A DNA stretch of 64,000 nt from contig VBGR01000041.1 of the NCBI GenBank assembly GCA_005880695.1, forward strand, positions 1 to 64,000, in the 5' to 3' direction. The notes under the pieces are model-generated. The model saw only the letters and a program-made list of their open reading frames with translations, was not told the DNA's origin and made no database searches. Position numbers and translations under genes: made by a program. This document shows positions 4,665 to 12,354 of this stretch, piece after piece. The first letter of the stretch is position 1; each line of letters begins with the position of its first letter. The DNA is from Chloroflexota bacterium (GTDB lineage: Bacteria; Chloroflexota; Dormibacteria; Dormibacterales; Dormibacteraceae).

Positions 4665-6863
4665 TCAGCCGCGGCAGATCGGGATGGCGTGAGGCGTCGG
4701 GCAGGGAGCCGGCGGCGCGCCGTCCACCGGGACCGGCCCGGTGCCAGGGTCGGGCGGGACGGGGTCGGCCGTCGGCGTCGGTAGCGGGCTCGGGTGGTCC
4801 CCGGGAAGGCTGGGAACGCTGCGCTGGTCGGAGAGGAAATAGGTCCCGCCCCGACTCCCGCTGACCACATCGGCGGGCTGCGGGTACCACTTGTCGGGAA
4901 CGCCGGCCAGGGCTTCGGTCATGAACCGGTTCCAGGCCGGAGCCGCCACGTAAATGCCGTCCGAGTTGCGGCTCATGGTGTGCGTGATGCCTTTGACGTC
5001 CCCGATCCAGATCACTGCCGCCAGGTCCGGTGTGAATCCGATCGTGGTGGCGTCCTTGAAGTCGTCCGAGGTCCCCGTCTTGGCCGCTGAGGTGCGGTCG
5101 CGGAGATGCAGCTTGCTGTTGGGACCGAAGATCTTGTAGCGGTTGCGGTCGTCCTGCAGGATCTGCGCGGTCAGGAAGGTGACGCCCGGGTCGATGGCCT
5201 GCCGCCGGGTCGCGTTGGCATCCGTCTGGTAGAGGATCCTGCCCCGCGCGTCCCGGACCGAGAGGATCGCTTCGGGCTGGTGGTAGACGCCCATGTCGGC
5301 GATCGTGGCCAGGCCGTTCGCCTCCTCGAGGACGGTGATCGGGTAGCCGCCGAGCGTCAAGGCCGGCCCGTAAGCGGCCATCGGCGCGTTGGGGTTCAGG
5401 CTGCCGTCCCGGGGAAAGACGCCAATGTTGCGAGAGAAGTCGACGACTGTCGAGACCCCGACCGCCAGCTCGGTCTTGACCGCCGGGATGTTGAGCGAGT
5501 TGGAGAACGCCTCCCGCAGGGGCAGCGTGCCGTGGGTGCCGTGGTCGTAGTTGTAGACGAGGTAGTCGGGCGCGGCGGTCTGGGGCACCCGGAGCGGGCT
5601 CGGCCCGTCCACGATCTGCGTCTCCATAGTCACCTTGCGGGTGTTGAGCGCGGCCGTGTAGGTGAAGACTTTGTAAGAGGACCCGACGTTGCGGGGCGTC
5701 GTGGCCAGGTTGATCTGGCCGTCCCTCGTGTCGTTGTAGTCATGGCTGCCGACCATCACGAGGATCTGCGCCGTCTTCGGGTCCAGGGCCACCATCGCCG
5801 AGTCGAGGAGGCCGCCCGGGTCCTGGTCGCGCCAGAGGTTGGCATTCAGGTTGTCGGAGATGACGCGCTCGCCGATCTGCTGCTTGCCGAAATCCAGCGA
5901 GCTGGTGACGACCAGCTGCTGCTCGCCTGGCTTGAACCCGAGCGCGCGCAGCTCGTCCTGGACGTAGTCGACGAAGTGGGGCGCCCTGAAGGTGTTGGTA
6001 GGGGTGAAGACCTCCAGCTTCTCGGTCGCGGCCTGGTTGAACTGGAGGGCCGAGATCGACTGGAGATTGAGCATCGCCTGCAGGACCTCGAGCTGGCGCG
6101 CCTTGGCCGCCGCCGGGTGCACTATCGGATTCCAGCGGGTGGGAGCCTGCGGCAGGCCGGCGAGCATCGCCGACTGGGCGACGTCCAGGTCCTTGGCGTC
6201 CTTGTGGAAGAAGAGCCGAGCGGCCGCCTCCACGCCATAGGCTTGCTGGCCGTAGTAGCTGTGGTTCAGGTAAAGCTCGAGGATCTGGTCCTTGGAGTAC
6301 GTCTGGCTCAGCTGGTAGGCCAGGATGATCTCCTTCAGTTTTCGGGTGTAGCTCTGCTCCGGAGTTAAGAAGAGCTGCTTGGCCAGCTGCTGGGTGATGG
6401 TGCTGCCGCCACCCACGACCCGGCCGGCACGGAGGTTTTCGTATGCCGAGCGGGCGATGCCGGTGACGTCGAAGCCCTGGTTCCGATAGAAGTTCTTGTC
6501 TTCGATCGCGATCGTTGCCTTGGGCACCCAGGCCGAGACGTCCTTCAGGGTTGCGTACTGGCTGTGGTCTCCGTTTTCGCCGACGTCGGCCAGGAGGACC
6601 TGGCCGCTCCGGTCGTAAACGAGCGTGTCGCCCTTGAAGGCGGCGGCATCCAGGCCCTTGATGGCGGGCAGCGTGGAGAGGAATTGCTCGGCGTAGGCGT
6701 CCGCCACTCCGCCGGCCAGGAGCAGCACCACCAGGCAGACGGCCAGCAGGCGGAGCCTCGCGGCGCGCCGGGCCCGCTGGCCGATCGGGGCCCAGAAAGC
6801 ATGGATCCGGGCGCGGGTCCGATGCCCTCTCGAGGTCCTATAGGTTGCGAGACGCTTGGCCAA
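4665..6863 (-). CDS. Class A penicillin-binding protein (glycosyltransferase/transpeptidase)
   Basis: Bifunctional peptidoglycan synthase, 732 aa, anchored by one transmembrane segment (residues 37-57). The GT51 domain has the catalytic motif IAIEDKNFY (Glu121) and GGSTITQQLAKQLFL. The transpeptidase has SSYK (Ser395), SxN as SLN (456-458) and KTGT (595-598). The C-terminus is a proline-rich tail. It starts at TTG, 18 bases after the asparagine synthetase stop. The location after a flippase and an amidotransferase suggests an envelope-assembly operon. The SxxK context (NVGSSYKVF) lacks the common Pro-Gly before the serine, but all catalytic residues are present. Confidence 0.93.
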   Translation of the reverse strand: MAKRLATYRTSRGHRTRARIHAFWAPIGQRARRAARLRLLAVCLVVLLLAGGVADAYAEQFLSTLPAIKGLDAAAFKGDTLVYDRSGQVLLADVGENGDHSQYATLKDVSAWVPKATIAIEDKNFYRNQGFDVTGIARSAYENLRAGRVVGGGSTITQQLAKQLFLTPEQSYTRKLKEIILAYQLSQTYSKDQILELYLNHSYYGQQAYGVEAAARLFFHKDAKDLDVAQSAMLAGLPQAPTRWNPIVHPAAAKARQLEVLQAMLNLQSISALQFNQAATEKLEVFTPTNTFRAPHFVDYVQDELRALGFKPGEQQLVVTSSLDFGKQQIGERVISDNLNANLWRDQDPGGLLDSAMVALDPKTAQILVMVGSHDYNDTRDGQINLATTPRNVGSSYKVFTYTAALNTRKVTMETQIVDGPSPLRVPQTAAPDYLVYNYDHGTHGTLPLREAFSNSLNIPAVKTELAVGVSTVVDFSRNIGVFPRDGSLNPNAPMAAYGPALTLGGYPITVLEEANGLATIADMGVYHQPEAILSVRDARGRILYQTDANATRRQAIDPGVTFLTAQILQDDRNRYKIFGPNSKLHLRDRTSAAKTGTSDDFKDATTIGFTPDLAAVIWIGDVKGITHTMSRNSDGIYVAAPAWNRFMTEALAGVPDKWYPQPADVVSGSRGGTYFLSDQRSVPSLPGDHPSPLPTPTADPVPPDPGTGPVPVDGAPPAPCPTPHAIPICRG

Positions 6864-6881: not shown

Positions 6882-9500
6882 CTACACGCCCCGCAATTCG
6901 CCGACACGGCGGAGAAGGGCGAAGGGTGTTTGCTCATCCTTCTGCCCTAACGGGTTATCCCGGAAAAGCGATACGACCAGCTCGCGATCCGCGCCCTGGC
7001 TGGCCCCCAGGACCGCACAGCCGATGTCGTTGGCGTCGATGATCGCGACGCCGCAACCAAAGGCTGCGGCGAGCCGCCTGGCCACGCCGTCCGGATCGGC
7101 GGGCGCCCGCTTGGCGTGCGTGTTCGAAGGCGGGATCGTGTAGGGCGTGGGCCCGTCGATCGCGGCCACCCGGGGACCGGCCACGCGGTAGAAGACGCCG
7201 CGCATCCCAAGCGGCTTGGTCACCACGGCAGCGCCGGCGGCGAGCAGGACCCGGCCGAGCCCGACCTCTTCGATCGCGAGCTGCATGGTCTCGGGCATGG
7301 CTATGCCGATGCCGACCGGGCTGCGCCGCACATAGCGGGAAAGGAGCTTGGCGGCCCGCCCGGGGTGCACCTCCTCGATTGGAAGGGAGCGGCCCTGGCT
7401 GACGGCGACAGCCTTCTCGCTGAGGGCGAGGACGTCGCCAGGCTCCAGCCCGGCCGAGCCCAGCGCCTCGCGAACGGCGGCCTCGAGATCGTCGCCCGGC
7501 GCCACCTTCCTCGATTTCAATGGGGCCCGCGCGAAGACGGCGCCGCCCCTGGCCGTTGCGAAGAGGTGGCGGCCGGGATTGGGCTGGAACCGCTCCAAAG
7601 CGGCCGACGCCGAGGCGGTTCCAAGCAGGCTTGGAGCCAGCTCATCGCCGATCCGGGCCAGGCCGGCCTCCGGAAGGCGACCGGTCCGCGCCCCGCCTTC
7701 CGGGCTGAAGAAGACCCGGAGCCAGGCTTCGGTGTTCAGCGCCCGCCAGACGAAGGGGTGTTCCTCGAGCCGGTCGTCGCAGACCCGGTCGAATGCGTCC
7801 GCCAGGGCGAGTCCGTCCCAGTAAGGGCGCGCGCAGAAGGCGGGCGAGCGGAGCAGGCCCTGCACCCAGGCCCGCTCGGCCCGGAGCCAGCGGAACTCGG
7901 GGGTTGTGAATCCGACCTTCCAGCGGCGGGTACGGATCTTCTCCGGCAGCACGCCGCGCAGGCCCTCGCGAAGGATGGCCCGGCTCCAGCCGGCGTCGAC
8001 GATGGCCGTCTCTGGGAGCCGCAGGATCCACTCCACCAGCTCCTGGTCGAGGTAAGGCGGGCGCGACTCCATCGAGAAGGCCATCGAGTTGCGGTCCTCG
8101 TAGCGAAGCAGGCTCGGCAGGCTGAACTCGGTCAGGTCCTGCAGCAAGCGCCGCTTCAAGTCGTCGCGTACGCGCGGGTCGCGCGCCGGCTGGACCGACG
8201 CCCGGAAGCCGTCGCGGATGAGGCGCGCGGTTGGAAAGCGCTTGCCGCGTTCGCCGAGCCGCCTGCGCAGAAGCGGCCAGAGCACGTCGCGCGCGGCCCA
8301 GGCCTCGGCCAGCAGCCGGCCGAATCGGCGTTCGCGGAGCAGCTGCCGCAGGTAGACGAACTGGTAGGGCACGTAGCCCGCCAGCAACTCGTCACCGCCC
8401 TGGCCGTCGAGCAGCACCGTGACCTCGCCCTGAGCCTTGCGCATGACGCACCACTGCGCGTAGGGGCCGGTCGAGACCATCGGCTCCTCCTGGTGCCAGA
8501 CGACGCGGTCCAGCTCCTCGAGAAAGCGCTCCGCAGTCGGATGGACGAAGTTCTTCTCCGCACCGGTCGCCTTCAGAACCAGGTCGATGTAGTCGCGCTC
8601 GTCGATCGGGTCGCCGTCGAAGACCGCGCTGAACGTCTTCAGGTGGTCGCCCATCGACGCGGCGTCGGGGACGTGCTTCTCGAGCAGCTCGGACATGAAA
8701 CAGACGATGGCGGAAGAGTCCAGGCCGCCCGAGAGGCAGGTGCCGACAGGCACCTCAGCAACGAGCCGGCGCTCGACGGCCTTCTCGAAGAGCCGCCGGA
8801 ACTCTTGCGGGTCGGCGCTGCCGTCGCTGGCCAGGACGGGCTGCCAGTAGCGCTCCTGCGTCATGCCGCCGGCATCGACGACCGCATAATGCGCGGCCGG
8901 GAGCTGGTGCACTCCCTTGAAGAAGCTCTCGTCCCGGCGGTCATGGAAGCCGAGCGTCAGGTAGTCATGGATCCGCTGCGGGTCCGGGTCGCTGCTGAAG
9001 GCGGGCTCCTGGAAGAAGGCCTTTATCTCTGACGCGAAGAGCAGGCGCCCTCCCGCGCGCGCCCAGTAAAGGGGCTTGATGCCGAAGTGGTCGCGGGCGA
9101 GGACCAGCTTGGGAGCGCCGTTGCGCCTGTCGACGATGGCCGCGGCCCACATCCCGTTGAAGCGGGAGAAACACTCCGGGCCCCACTCCTCGTAGCCGTG
9201 CACGATGACCTCGGTGTCGGAGTTGGTGCGGAACTCGTGGCCGGCGGACTTCAGCTCCTGGCGGAGCTCGCGGTAGTTGTAGATCTCGCCGTTGTAGACA
9301 GTGACTACGCGCGCGTCTTCGTTGGCTATCGGCTGCCGGCCGAGCTCGATGTCGATGATCGCCAGGCGGCGCATGCCGAGGGAGGCGTCCGGCGTTTCCA
9401 GGAAGCCGTCGTCGTCCGGCCCGCGGTGGCGGATACAGGCGGCCATGCCTTCCAGCACGCCTCGCTCGGGCGGCCCCCAGAAGCCGCAAATGCCGCACAT
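6882..9500 (-). CDS. asnB: Asparagine synthetase (glutamine-hydrolysing) fused to a CofE-like gamma-glutamyl ligase domain
   Basis: 872 aa from MCGICGF, which supplies the N-terminal nucleophile Cys2. An Ntn glutaminase domain fills residues 2 to about 205. The ATP-pyrophosphatase synthetase domain carries SGGLDSS at 257-263 and runs to about 615. After a linker, residues about 644-872 look like the F420-0:gamma-glutamyl ligase (CofE/FbiB) family: GDVLALSEKAVAVSQGR, PLGMRGVFYRVAG and IIDANDIGCAVLG. Ordinary AsnB ends near 620 aa, so this is a fusion in a single uninterrupted frame. It starts 2 bases after the flippase stop. Known AsnB relatives amidate aspartate or cell-wall carboxyls. The joined domain suggests modification of an exported glycan or peptide by amidation or glutamylation (inference). 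Confidence 0.9.
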   Translation of the reverse strand: MCGICGFWGPPERGVLEGMAACIRHRGPDDDGFLETPDASLGMRRLAIIDIELGRQPIANEDARVVTVYNGEIYNYRELRQELKSAGHEFRTNSDTEVIVHGYEEWGPECFSRFNGMWAAAIVDRRNGAPKLVLARDHFGIKPLYWARAGGRLLFASEIKAFFQEPAFSSDPDPQRIHDYLTLGFHDRRDESFFKGVHQLPAAHYAVVDAGGMTQERYWQPVLASDGSADPQEFRRLFEKAVERRLVAEVPVGTCLSGGLDSSAIVCFMSELLEKHVPDAASMGDHLKTFSAVFDGDPIDERDYIDLVLKATGAEKNFVHPTAERFLEELDRVVWHQEEPMVSTGPYAQWCVMRKAQGEVTVLLDGQGGDELLAGYVPYQFVYLRQLLRERRFGRLLAEAWAARDVLWPLLRRRLGERGKRFPTARLIRDGFRASVQPARDPRVRDDLKRRLLQDLTEFSLPSLLRYEDRNSMAFSMESRPPYLDQELVEWILRLPETAIVDAGWSRAILREGLRGVLPEKIRTRRWKVGFTTPEFRWLRAERAWVQGLLRSPAFCARPYWDGLALADAFDRVCDDRLEEHPFVWRALNTEAWLRVFFSPEGGARTGRLPEAGLARIGDELAPSLLGTASASAALERFQPNPGRHLFATARGGAVFARAPLKSRKVAPGDDLEAAVREALGSAGLEPGDVLALSEKAVAVSQGRSLPIEEVHPGRAAKLLSRYVRRSPVGIGIAMPETMQLAIEEVGLGRVLLAAGAAVVTKPLGMRGVFYRVAGPRVAAIDGPTPYTIPPSNTHAKRAPADPDGVARRLAAAFGCGVAIIDANDIGCAVLGASQGADRELVVSLFRDNPLGQKDEQTPFALLRRVGELRGV

Positions 9501-10980: not shown

Positions 10981-11490
10981 TCAGCCCTCTCGTGGCCGGG
11001 CGAACACGTCAGCCGGGTCGACCAGCCGCTCCAGGCGCGTCCCCGGAAAGTGGATCCGCACGCCCGGCCGCCCTGGCGCGCCGAAGTCCCAGCCTGCGGA
11101 GTAATAGCGCTGGGCCTCGGCCAGGTCCTTTGCCTGCGCGACCTGGCGGCCGTCGCTGAAGCCGATCGTCTGGGCGCGAGCGCCAGGGAAGCCGAGGCGG
11201 ACGACGCCGCCGGTGCGAAGGTTGTAGGTGTAGTCGTCGAGTACCCCGCTATCGCTGGCGGCGACGAGATCGACCAGGTTTGGAAAGGCGCCTTCCTTCA
11301 TGGCTGACTTGAGATCGGCCCGGGCCTTGACCTGCTCCAGGCGCTCGCGGCGGCGGAGCTCGGTCAGGAGGACGTCCCGTTCCGCCCGCAGCCCCGCCAG
11401 CTCCTGTTCGAGCGGCCGCATCCGCGCCCGGAGCTCCTCGATCCGGCGCCCGAGCTCGTCGGGGTCGAGCTGCACGAGATCCTCCGGCAT
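10981..11490 (-). CDS. Hypothetical coiled-coil protein, first gene of the flippase-asnB-PBP run
   Basis: 169 aa from ATG 11490. Residues about 10-65 form a charged heptad-rich helix (ELGRRIEELRARMRPLEQEL) typical of a coiled coil. The remainder looks beta-rich (TYNLRTGGVVRLGFPGARAQ, then GRPGVRIHFPGTRLERLVDP). No signal peptide or membrane segment is seen, and I do not recognise the family. The 2-base gap to the flippase implies translational coupling. The open frame extends to 11601, but that would overlap the divergent amidohydrolase. Confidence 0.75.
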   Translation of the reverse strand: MPEDLVQLDPDELGRRIEELRARMRPLEQELAGLRAERDVLLTELRRRERLEQVKARADLKSAMKEGAFPNLVDLVAASDSGVLDDYTYNLRTGGVVRLGFPGARAQTIGFSDGRQVAQAKDLAEAQRYYSAGWDFGAPGRPGVRIHFPGTRLERLVDPADVFARPREG

Positions 11491-11495
11491 CCCGG

Positions 11496-11508
11496 ATATT
11501 GTCGGCAG
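11496..11508 (+). promoter_or_regulatory. Compact divergent promoter region with TATTGT six bases before an ATG
   Basis: Only 18 bases separate two divergent ATGs (11490 minus, 11509 plus). TATTGT at 11497-11502 sits six bases before the plus-strand ATG, and its complement (GACAAT) sits at similar spacing before the minus-strand ATG. This fits leaderless transcripts in both directions; no ribosome binding site fits in the gap on the plus strand. Confidence 0.45.
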
Positions 11509-12354
11509 ATGCCGGTCCCTCTCGACTTTCACGTCCATCCGTCCACCTCTGAATATCTCGAAGGCTCGCTCGGGAGTTACTTGCCCGACCTCGAGCACCA
11601 CTTCCGGATGGAGATGCGCGTGCGCACCGTCGAGGAGATGGCGGCGGATTTCGAAGGCCTGCGCGGCGTGCTGCTGGCCTGGGATGCCGAAACCTTCAGC
11701 GGGCGCCCGGCGGTGACCAACGACTTCGTGGTCTCGGTCTGCCGCCGCTACCCGGACCGCTTCATCCCCTTCGGCTCGGTCGACCCCTTAAAGGGCGAGG
11801 CGGCGATCGCCGAGGCCCGCCGCGCGGTCCGCGAGCTGAGCGTCAAGGGCTTCAAGTTCCACCCTGCCGCCCAGGGCTTCCGGCCCTCCGACCCTCGCCA
11901 CTTCCCACTCTTCGAGGAGATCGCCGGTCTCCACGTGCCCTGCCTCTTCCACGCCGGCACGACGGGGCTGGGAGCAGGCACCCCTGGCGGCTCGGGGATC
12001 GCGCTGGCGCCGGTCCAGCCCATCCAGTTCGATACGCTGGCGGCCGCCTTCCCGACGTTGGTGATCGTCTGCGCCCACCCGGCCTGGCCCTGGCAGCTGG
12101 AGATGAACGCGGTCGCCGCCCATAAGGCCAACCTCTACATCGACCTCTCGGGCTGGGCGCCCAAGTACTTCCCTCCGGAGCTCACCCGCGAGCTCGGCCG
12201 CGGGCTCCAGGACAAGGCGCTCTTCGGGACCGACTACCCGTTCATCCTGCCCGAGCGCTGGCTCCGCGAGTTCGAGACCTTCGACCTGCCCCCTGACGTC
12301 AAAGAAAAGATCCTCTGGCGGAATGCGGAGCGCCTTCTCGATCTTGTTGACTGA
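11509..12354 (+). CDS. Amidohydrolase family protein (amidohydrolase_2 / ACMSD-like TIM barrel)
   Basis: 281-aa metal-dependent hydrolase or decarboxylase. Metal ligands are visible as HVH in LDFHVHPST (residues 7-9), KGFKFHPAAQGF, LFHAGTTG, CAHPAWPW and the barrel-end Asp in LFGTDYPF. The family includes 2-amino-3-carboxymuconate-semialdehyde decarboxylase and resorcylate decarboxylase-like enzymes; the substrate cannot be assigned. The LLM oxidoreductase gene begins one base after its stop, so the two probably act in one catabolic or detoxification step pair. Confidence 0.88.
   Translation: MPVPLDFHVHPSTSEYLEGSLGSYLPDLEHHFRMEMRVRTVEEMAADFEGLRGVLLAWDAETFSGRPAVTNDFVVSVCRRYPDRFIPFGSVDPLKGEAAIAEARRAVRELSVKGFKFHPAAQGFRPSDPRHFPLFEEIAGLHVPCLFHAGTTGLGAGTPGGSGIALAPVQPIQFDTLAAAFPTLVIVCAHPAWPWQLEMNAVAAHKANLYIDLSGWAPKYFPPELTRELGRGLQDKALFGTDYPFILPERWLREFETFDLPPDVKEKILWRNAERLLDLVD

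Follow-up and report, generated by a model that had tools for sequence, protein, structure and literature searches.

A gene joining AsnB to a CofE-like domain

We analyzed a 64,000-nucleotide stretch of DNA (the window) from a Chloroflexota soil bacterium of the class Dormibacteria (contig VBGR01000041.1 of assembly GCA_005880695.1), focusing on a gene that joins an asparagine synthetase (AsnB) to a domain related to CofE, the F420-0:L-glutamate ligase. This gene is encoded on the minus strand (6882..9500) and is open without interruption from an ATG start at 9500 to a TAG stop at 6882, encoding a protein of 872 amino acids (aa); it has homologous full-length fusions in other assemblies. A first reading of the letters of this DNA (the original prediction) had described a single frame of 872 codons and had given no strand; the plus-strand frame across 6882-9500 contains stops.

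The N-terminal part is a complete AsnB, as had been proposed. A class II glutamine amidotransferase domain occupies residues 1-170 (8991..9500, minus strand), with the Cys2 nucleophile, NGE at 70-72 and NSD at 93-95, and a Pfam scan of the protein places GATase_7 at residues 44-163 (E 3.6e-47). The Asn_synthase (acyl-adenylate) domain follows at residues 233-595 (7716..8804, minus strand), with SGGLDSS at 257-263 and Q367; it is supported by Pfam (PF00733, E 1.9e-72), by alignment to 1ct9 and by Foldseek matches of its model to TsnB9 (7ylz) and AsnB (1ct9), whose fold it is predicted to share. Plain AsnB proteins had been expected to end near 620 aa; the homologues compared here end at about 572-611 aa. 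A helical connector, predicted to be ordered in the full-length AlphaFold2 model, spans residues 596-655 or so (7536..7715, minus strand) and leads to the CofE-like domain, residues about 656-869 (6894..7535, minus strand). Its recognizable motifs are SEKxVxxSQGR (694-704), AIDGP (780-784, containing D782), IIDAND (820-825, containing D822 and N824), DNPLGQ (848-853) and EQTP (856-859).

Immediately upstream of the fusion, after a 2-bp gap, is a MOP-family flippase of 491 aa (PF01943; 9503..10978, minus strand), and immediately downstream, after 18 bp, a class A penicillin-binding protein (PBP) of 732 aa with Transgly and Transpeptidase domains by Pfam (4665..6863, minus strand); both gaps had been given correctly. 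The next genes after the PBP encode trigger factor, ClpP and ClpX. A coiled-coil protein of 206 aa is encoded 2 bp upstream of the flippase (window 10981-11601, minus strand), apparently in the same operon; it lacks a Pfam or NCBIfam match and is kept in one other locus (L025, 94%).

The C-terminal domain is related to, and distinct from, CofE

The profile search suggested for the C-terminal part gave a significant match to the F420_ligase family (PF01996) at residues 662-812 (E 8.5e-10, 38.9 bits vs. a curated cut-off of 25). A profile built from eight sequences and compared with the PDB had CofE as its sole significant match (E 4e-8), and hhalign against ten bona fide CofE proteins gave a probability of 98.4% (E 8.7e-15) over 194 columns; homology therefore covers the whole domain, beyond the 130 positions matched by Pfam. 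Structure prediction, which had also been recommended, points the same way. AlphaFold2 modeled the C-terminal domain with a pLDDT of 93.3 and the full-length fusion with a mean pLDDT of 91.5 and a pTM of 0.91, and all five significant PDB matches found by Foldseek with the domain model are CofE from A. fulgidus (2phn, E 2.8e-9, TM score 0.58).

The same domain departs from CofE in its details. It scores 18.1 bits against TIGR01916, the CofE equivalog model, vs. a cut-off of 180.65 and 287.4 for the true CofE of the same genome. The CofE signature residues K51 and E53 and the motifs NAGIDxSN and DxxGRxxR are not retained; at these places the window protein has SEKAVAVSQGR, AIDGPTPYTIPPSN and IIDANDIG. 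In the family pattern, AIDGPxxxTIPPxN and IIDANDIG stand where CofE has NAGIDxSN and DxxGRxWR, with a hydrophobic helical stretch between them; an insert rich in hydrophobic helix takes the place of the CofE inter-strand region. CofE-family motifs had been claimed here from the letters alone: the homology stands, but IIDANDIGCAVLG is the counterpart of the DTFGRPWR-type motif and not a CofE motif. Nine positions are invariant across 92 diverse CofE-like sequences, including D782, D822, N824, N849, P850 and P859 of the window protein. Comparison with the two metal-binding aspartates of CofE showed D822 aligned with the invariant D158; D782 is equally invariant, but hhalign sets it a few residues away from CofE D116. 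The C-terminal GQxxEQTP...R of the fusion matches MGQxxEGTPxxxxRG of CofE and of the FbiB N-terminal domain (PF01996; 2phn, 7uld), with which fold and full-length profile homology are shared. Judged by sequence, the C-terminal domain is a relative of CofE and not CofE itself.

The fusion is genuine and has exchanged places with a split pair

The AsnB-CofE-like fusion is genuine. Full-length fusions occur in a Dormibacteraeota metagenome-assembled genome (MAG; L003/G001, 95% identical to the window protein), a Chloroflexi MAG (L004/G006, 75%), a Symbiobacterium MAG (L005, 59%) and a Firmicutes MAG (L006, 57%), and further ones in L026, L027, L080 and L081, with a contig-edge piece in L028. Within the class of the window the fusion spans two families, and G329 and G354 carry it too. 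In all, about ten assemblies from Dormibacteria (Chloroflexota) and Symbiobacterium-like Bacillota carry it at full length; because it recurs in this way, a missing stop codon or an assembly artefact, which the original prediction had wanted excluded, is ruled out. The fused CofE-like domains form one clade (support 0.95), and their sharing by Dormibacteria and Symbiobacterium-like Bacillota suggests that the fusion moved between phyla. No relatives were found in a search of plasmids. A same-looking fusion in Bacillota SURF_36 (L012:9980-11385) is broken by frame changes, from either sequence error or pseudogene formation, and was for that reason excluded from the counts.

The flippase and PBP neighbors, for which a check of conservation had been suggested, are not conserved outside the window's family. 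In L004/L015 and L025, too, a class A PBP follows the fusion. Other Dormibacteria have the order GroES-GroEL-[fusion]-alanine racemase-nitrilase-PcrA-LigA-UvrC, in which the alanine racemase is one point in favor of a peptidoglycan link; the Symbiobacterium fusion adjoins GltX.

In three loci (L029, L072 and L074), a separate CofE-like gene follows asnB, its start overlapping the asnB stop by a few bases. Two sister species of one genus, G041 and G414, have the fusion and the split pair, respectively, at a shared locus, in the slot GroES-GroEL-[ ]-alanine racemase-CN hydrolase-PcrA-LigA-UvrC. The flanking GroEL, PcrA and LigA are 81-89% identical between the two species and the alanine racemase 65%, vs. 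42% for AsnB and 37% for the CofE-like part. By these identities, a split pair of different ancestry occupies the fusion site: equivalent units have been swapped in situ. Because fused and split forms replace each other at the same site, the AsnB and CofE-like parts can be taken as one functional unit. This is the strongest evidence for such a unit presented here, and at the level of sequence it shows directly that ligase and amidotransferase act together.

Relatives of the domain lie beside peptidoglycan genes in three phyla

A family search with the domain profile (E <= 1e-8) detected relatives in 30 of 400 Chloroflexota genomes (20 strong, the weak ones being true CofE), in 160 of 399 genomes of the Symbiobacterium MAG's phylum, Bacillota, and in 132 of 149 genomes of the phylum of isolate SZAS-1, which is probably Eremiobacterota. 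The majority stand alone, as proteins about 230-260 aa long.

In the SZAS-1 phylum, 18 of 20 sampled loci (L163-L180; example L177, 6773-7489, plus strand) have the CofE-like gene within the dcw cluster, flanked by murF and mraY. The order is MraZ-RsmH-SpoVD-MurE-MurF-[CofE-like]-MraY-MurD-FtsW-MurG-MurC-MurB, with most genes confirmed by NCBIfam in L177 and MurG and MurB assigned by position only. Outside the dcw cluster, L181 and L182 (6265-7467, plus strand) have the CofE-like domain after a longer N-terminal region, which in L182 comprises a transmembrane helix plus a further stretch of about 170 aa.

Twelve Bacillota loci have the CofE-like domain fused C-terminally to Amidase_3, an N-acetylmuramoyl-L-alanine amidase, and a MurJ/Polysacc_synt-type flippase adjoins 10 of them (cytosolic-looking proteins of L143-L159; example L145, 7310-8965, minus strand). 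Hydropathy revealed no signal peptide or transmembrane-like segment in the Amidase_3 partners or in the fusion, and a membrane or secreted location was rejected on this ground; the signal-less amidase sequences are consistent with a cytosolic reaction. Genes for aldehyde ferredoxin oxidoreductase and ThiS-like proteins are frequently close to the Amidase_3 fusions of L143-L159.

In other Bacillota, Amidase_3 is a neighboring gene, overlapping the CofE-like gene in L214, and in L214-L218 GatD-MurT-MurJ lies about 5 kb away. The conserved block of these five loci comprises histone-deacetylase-like, hydantoinase, Amidase_3, CofE-like, isopropylmalate-dehydrogenase-like, phosphoesterase, NAGPA, GatD, MurT and MurJ genes. 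A flippase alone is the divergent neighbor in four loci, and a PF01943/MurJ-type flippase adjoins the CofE-like gene in 19 loci besides the window. In four Bacillota loci (L123, L126, L127 and L128), the CofE-like gene is followed by BlaI and then a BlaR1-type M56 peptidase, which suggests control by cell-wall stress.

Overall, a peptidoglycan-type neighbor was found within five genes in 56 of 99 CofE-like loci (a count that is not phylogenetically independent) vs. 0 of 10 bona fide CofE loci. The 'Mur ligase' neighbor in L133 lacks the N-terminal Mur domain, is FolC-like and was not counted as peptidoglycan; that locus was counted through its flippase. The CofE-like family is thus linked to peptidoglycan genes in three phyla, and the contexts vary from lineage to lineage, which would not be expected from one ancestral arrangement.

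The AsnB half

The AsnB half scores 429.6 against TIGR01536 (asparagine synthase; cut-off 267.1). At the position of E. coli Glu348, the proposed general base of AsnB, the 1ct9 alignment places Q367 of the window protein; every fusion examined has Gln there, and the three split AsnBs have Asn. Asparaginyl-tRNA synthetase (AsnRS) was above cut-off in none of the ten Dormibacteria carrying the fusion or the pair, and GatB is present in all ten, so these organisms probably form the asparagine of their proteins on tRNA; the Symbiobacterium-like genomes have AsnRS. The AsnRS/GatB pattern and the Glu348 change speak against simple asparagine supply.

AsnB-family enzymes can act elsewhere. In several Gram-positives they amidate the meso-diaminopimelic acid (mDAP) of peptidoglycan, and these AsnB/LtsA enzymes have lost the Asp-binding D and R and gained an extra substrate loop (PMC8554201). 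Those of B. subtilis, L. monocytogenes and C. glutamicum have the same GATase plus Asn_synthase architecture and illustrate that annotated asparagine synthases are able to act on peptidoglycan (PMC8554201); the likeness is one of architecture and description, and they have no ligase domain.

Proposed function of the fusion

We see about an even chance that the fusion is a cytosolic peptidoglycan-precursor enzyme in which the CofE-like ligase makes an amide and the AsnB half amidates a carboxylate, in the manner of AslA and AsnH. AslA is an ATP-grasp ligase, unrelated to the CofE-like domain, and is encoded separately from AsnH. In lactic acid bacteria and enterococci, AslA/Aslfm adds an acidic amino acid, D-Asp in lactic acid bacteria, which the AsnB-family enzyme AsnH then amidates (PMC4155827); this is our working analogy. 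CofE itself uses GTP and two metals to phosphorylate a phospholactyl carboxylate, which the glutamate amine attacks, and the authors who describe this liken the enzyme to MurD (PMC10861534). By analogy with CofE, the CofE-like half would draw on a nucleoside triphosphate and two metal ions to turn a carboxylate into an acyl phosphate, and then couple an amine, placing an amide on the carboxylate of a muropeptide or of the muramyl-lactyl group. The lactyl group is the natural counterpart of the phospholactyl substrate of CofE. The AsnB half would use ammonia from glutamine, via an acyl-adenylate, to turn a nearby carboxylate, either of the ligase product or of the same stem, into an amide. The likeliest logic would be 'ligate, then amidate': an amide branch is formed on a nucleotide- or lipid-linked muropeptide and the leftover carboxylate is neutralized. 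The packing of the whole predicted model (pTM 0.91) fits a two-site enzyme. We infer catalytic activity, nucleotide, substrate and step order alike by analogy.

For the family at large, we propose a little more tentatively, at somewhat less than an even chance, that a widespread group of CofE-fold ligases, mislabeled as F420 enzymes, carries out an unrecognized cytosolic step between MurF and MraY/MurJ, coupling an amine to a carboxylate of a muropeptide or of the muramyl-lactyl group. Its partner by fusion would be an amidotransferase in Dormibacteria and Symbiobacterium-like bacteria, and in other Bacillota a muramoyl-alanine amidase that has no signal peptide. The original prediction had imagined an undescribed amidation or glutamylation of an envelope component; the peptidoglycan genes found beside CofE-like genes in three phyla favor the envelope part, and glutamylation and an exported-glycan substrate find no support here.

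Alternative explanations

The family could instead modify some other exported lipid-linked glycan or peptide (a capsule, a teichoic-like polymer, an S-layer glycan), with envelope genes merely clustering nearby. Polysacc_synt-family MOP flippases are recurrent neighbors, that of the window being of this type, and QimC of S. pyogenes, to which our proteins are likened by description, is a CofE-like protein in the qim operon for a teichoic-acid-like wall modification (PMC13059722). We nevertheless consider this unlikely: the murF-mraY position, the Amidase_3 fusion and the proximity to MurJ, MurT and GatD are peptidoglycan-specific, and no glycosyltransferase cluster stands beside the CofE-like gene in the loci read. 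We give slightly less weight to an ordinary asparagine synthetase carrying a regulatory or relic CofE-like domain. The TIGR01536 score far above cut-off, the frequent housekeeping surroundings of fused genes and the AsnRS of Symbiobacterium-like genomes would fit; the CofE-like domain, for its part, keeps its invariant polar residues in 92 diverse sequences and is swapped together with AsnB between G041 and G414, AsnRS was not found in the Dormibacteria carrying the pair, and the Glu348 counterpart is changed in fused and split forms alike.

CofE homologues have been recruited outside F420 metabolism before, as in the folate gamma-glutamyl ligase FolC2 (Chlamydia CT611, COG1478), which complements an E. 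coli folC mutant (PMC1971073), and a FolC-type gene lies near the CofE-like gene in L133. Chlamydia, however, has a folate gene context and no folC; around the CofE-like family we saw no folate gene cluster, the context being peptidoglycan, and the window protein has no match to TIGR04132, the NCBIfam folate-associated CofE family. All 19 of the genomes tested have FolC itself above cut-off, which leaves no need for a role of the FolC2 type; replacement of FolC was rejected on this basis, and such an activity is improbable. Glutamylation of F420 itself, which the homology and the genome's capacity to make F420 might suggest, seems scarcely credible. A complete-looking FGD-CofC-CofE-CofD cluster (FGD being the F420-dependent glucose-6-phosphate dehydrogenase) lies on another contig of the same genome (C54; L030:8106-11333, plus strand), in keeping with the earlier remark that the fusion is not among F420 genes, and its bona fide CofE scores 250 bits against PF01996. 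With this separate cluster, and the fused domain so far under the TIGR01916 cut-off and altered in its CofE motifs, an F420 function was rejected; the family is moreover common in Bacillota genomes, beside peptidoglycan rather than F420 genes. Replacement of MurT/GatD is not supported as a general rule, there being no anti-correlation in the 399 Bacillota genomes: MurT is present in 52 of 160 with the CofE-like gene and 83 of 239 without (odds ratio 0.90, p 0.67). MurT is also absent from the genome of the window.

Several points weigh against a peptidoglycan-precursor enzyme. The F420-ligase invariants K51, E53 and R162 (L206 numbering) are changed, so that activity of the domain is not assured. 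No peptidoglycan gene lies within five genes in 43 of the 99 loci, loci within a phylum are not independent, and the neighbors of the fusion itself are mostly housekeeping (GroEL, PcrA, LigA, GltX). The neighboring flippases may carry other lipid-linked glycans, and the CofE-like gene, being independent of MurT, does not simply substitute for D-Glu amidation.

Significance

In the literature searched, whose coverage is partial, we found no description of the AsnB-CofE fusion, the Amidase_3-CofE fusion or the CofE-like gene of the dcw cluster. The parts belong to known families; their combination is new and so, probably, is their role. The family differs from CofE in lacking an F420 gene context and in being fused to AsnB or Amidase_3, and its members, which match PF01996, are probably annotated as F420 ligases in bacteria where they are unrelated to F420. 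If the family does modify peptidoglycan, it would bring a further enzyme into a pathway regarded as completely catalogued and provide candidates for stem-peptide substitutions that still have no assigned enzymes. The stand-alone gene of Bacillota would offer a route to the substrate.

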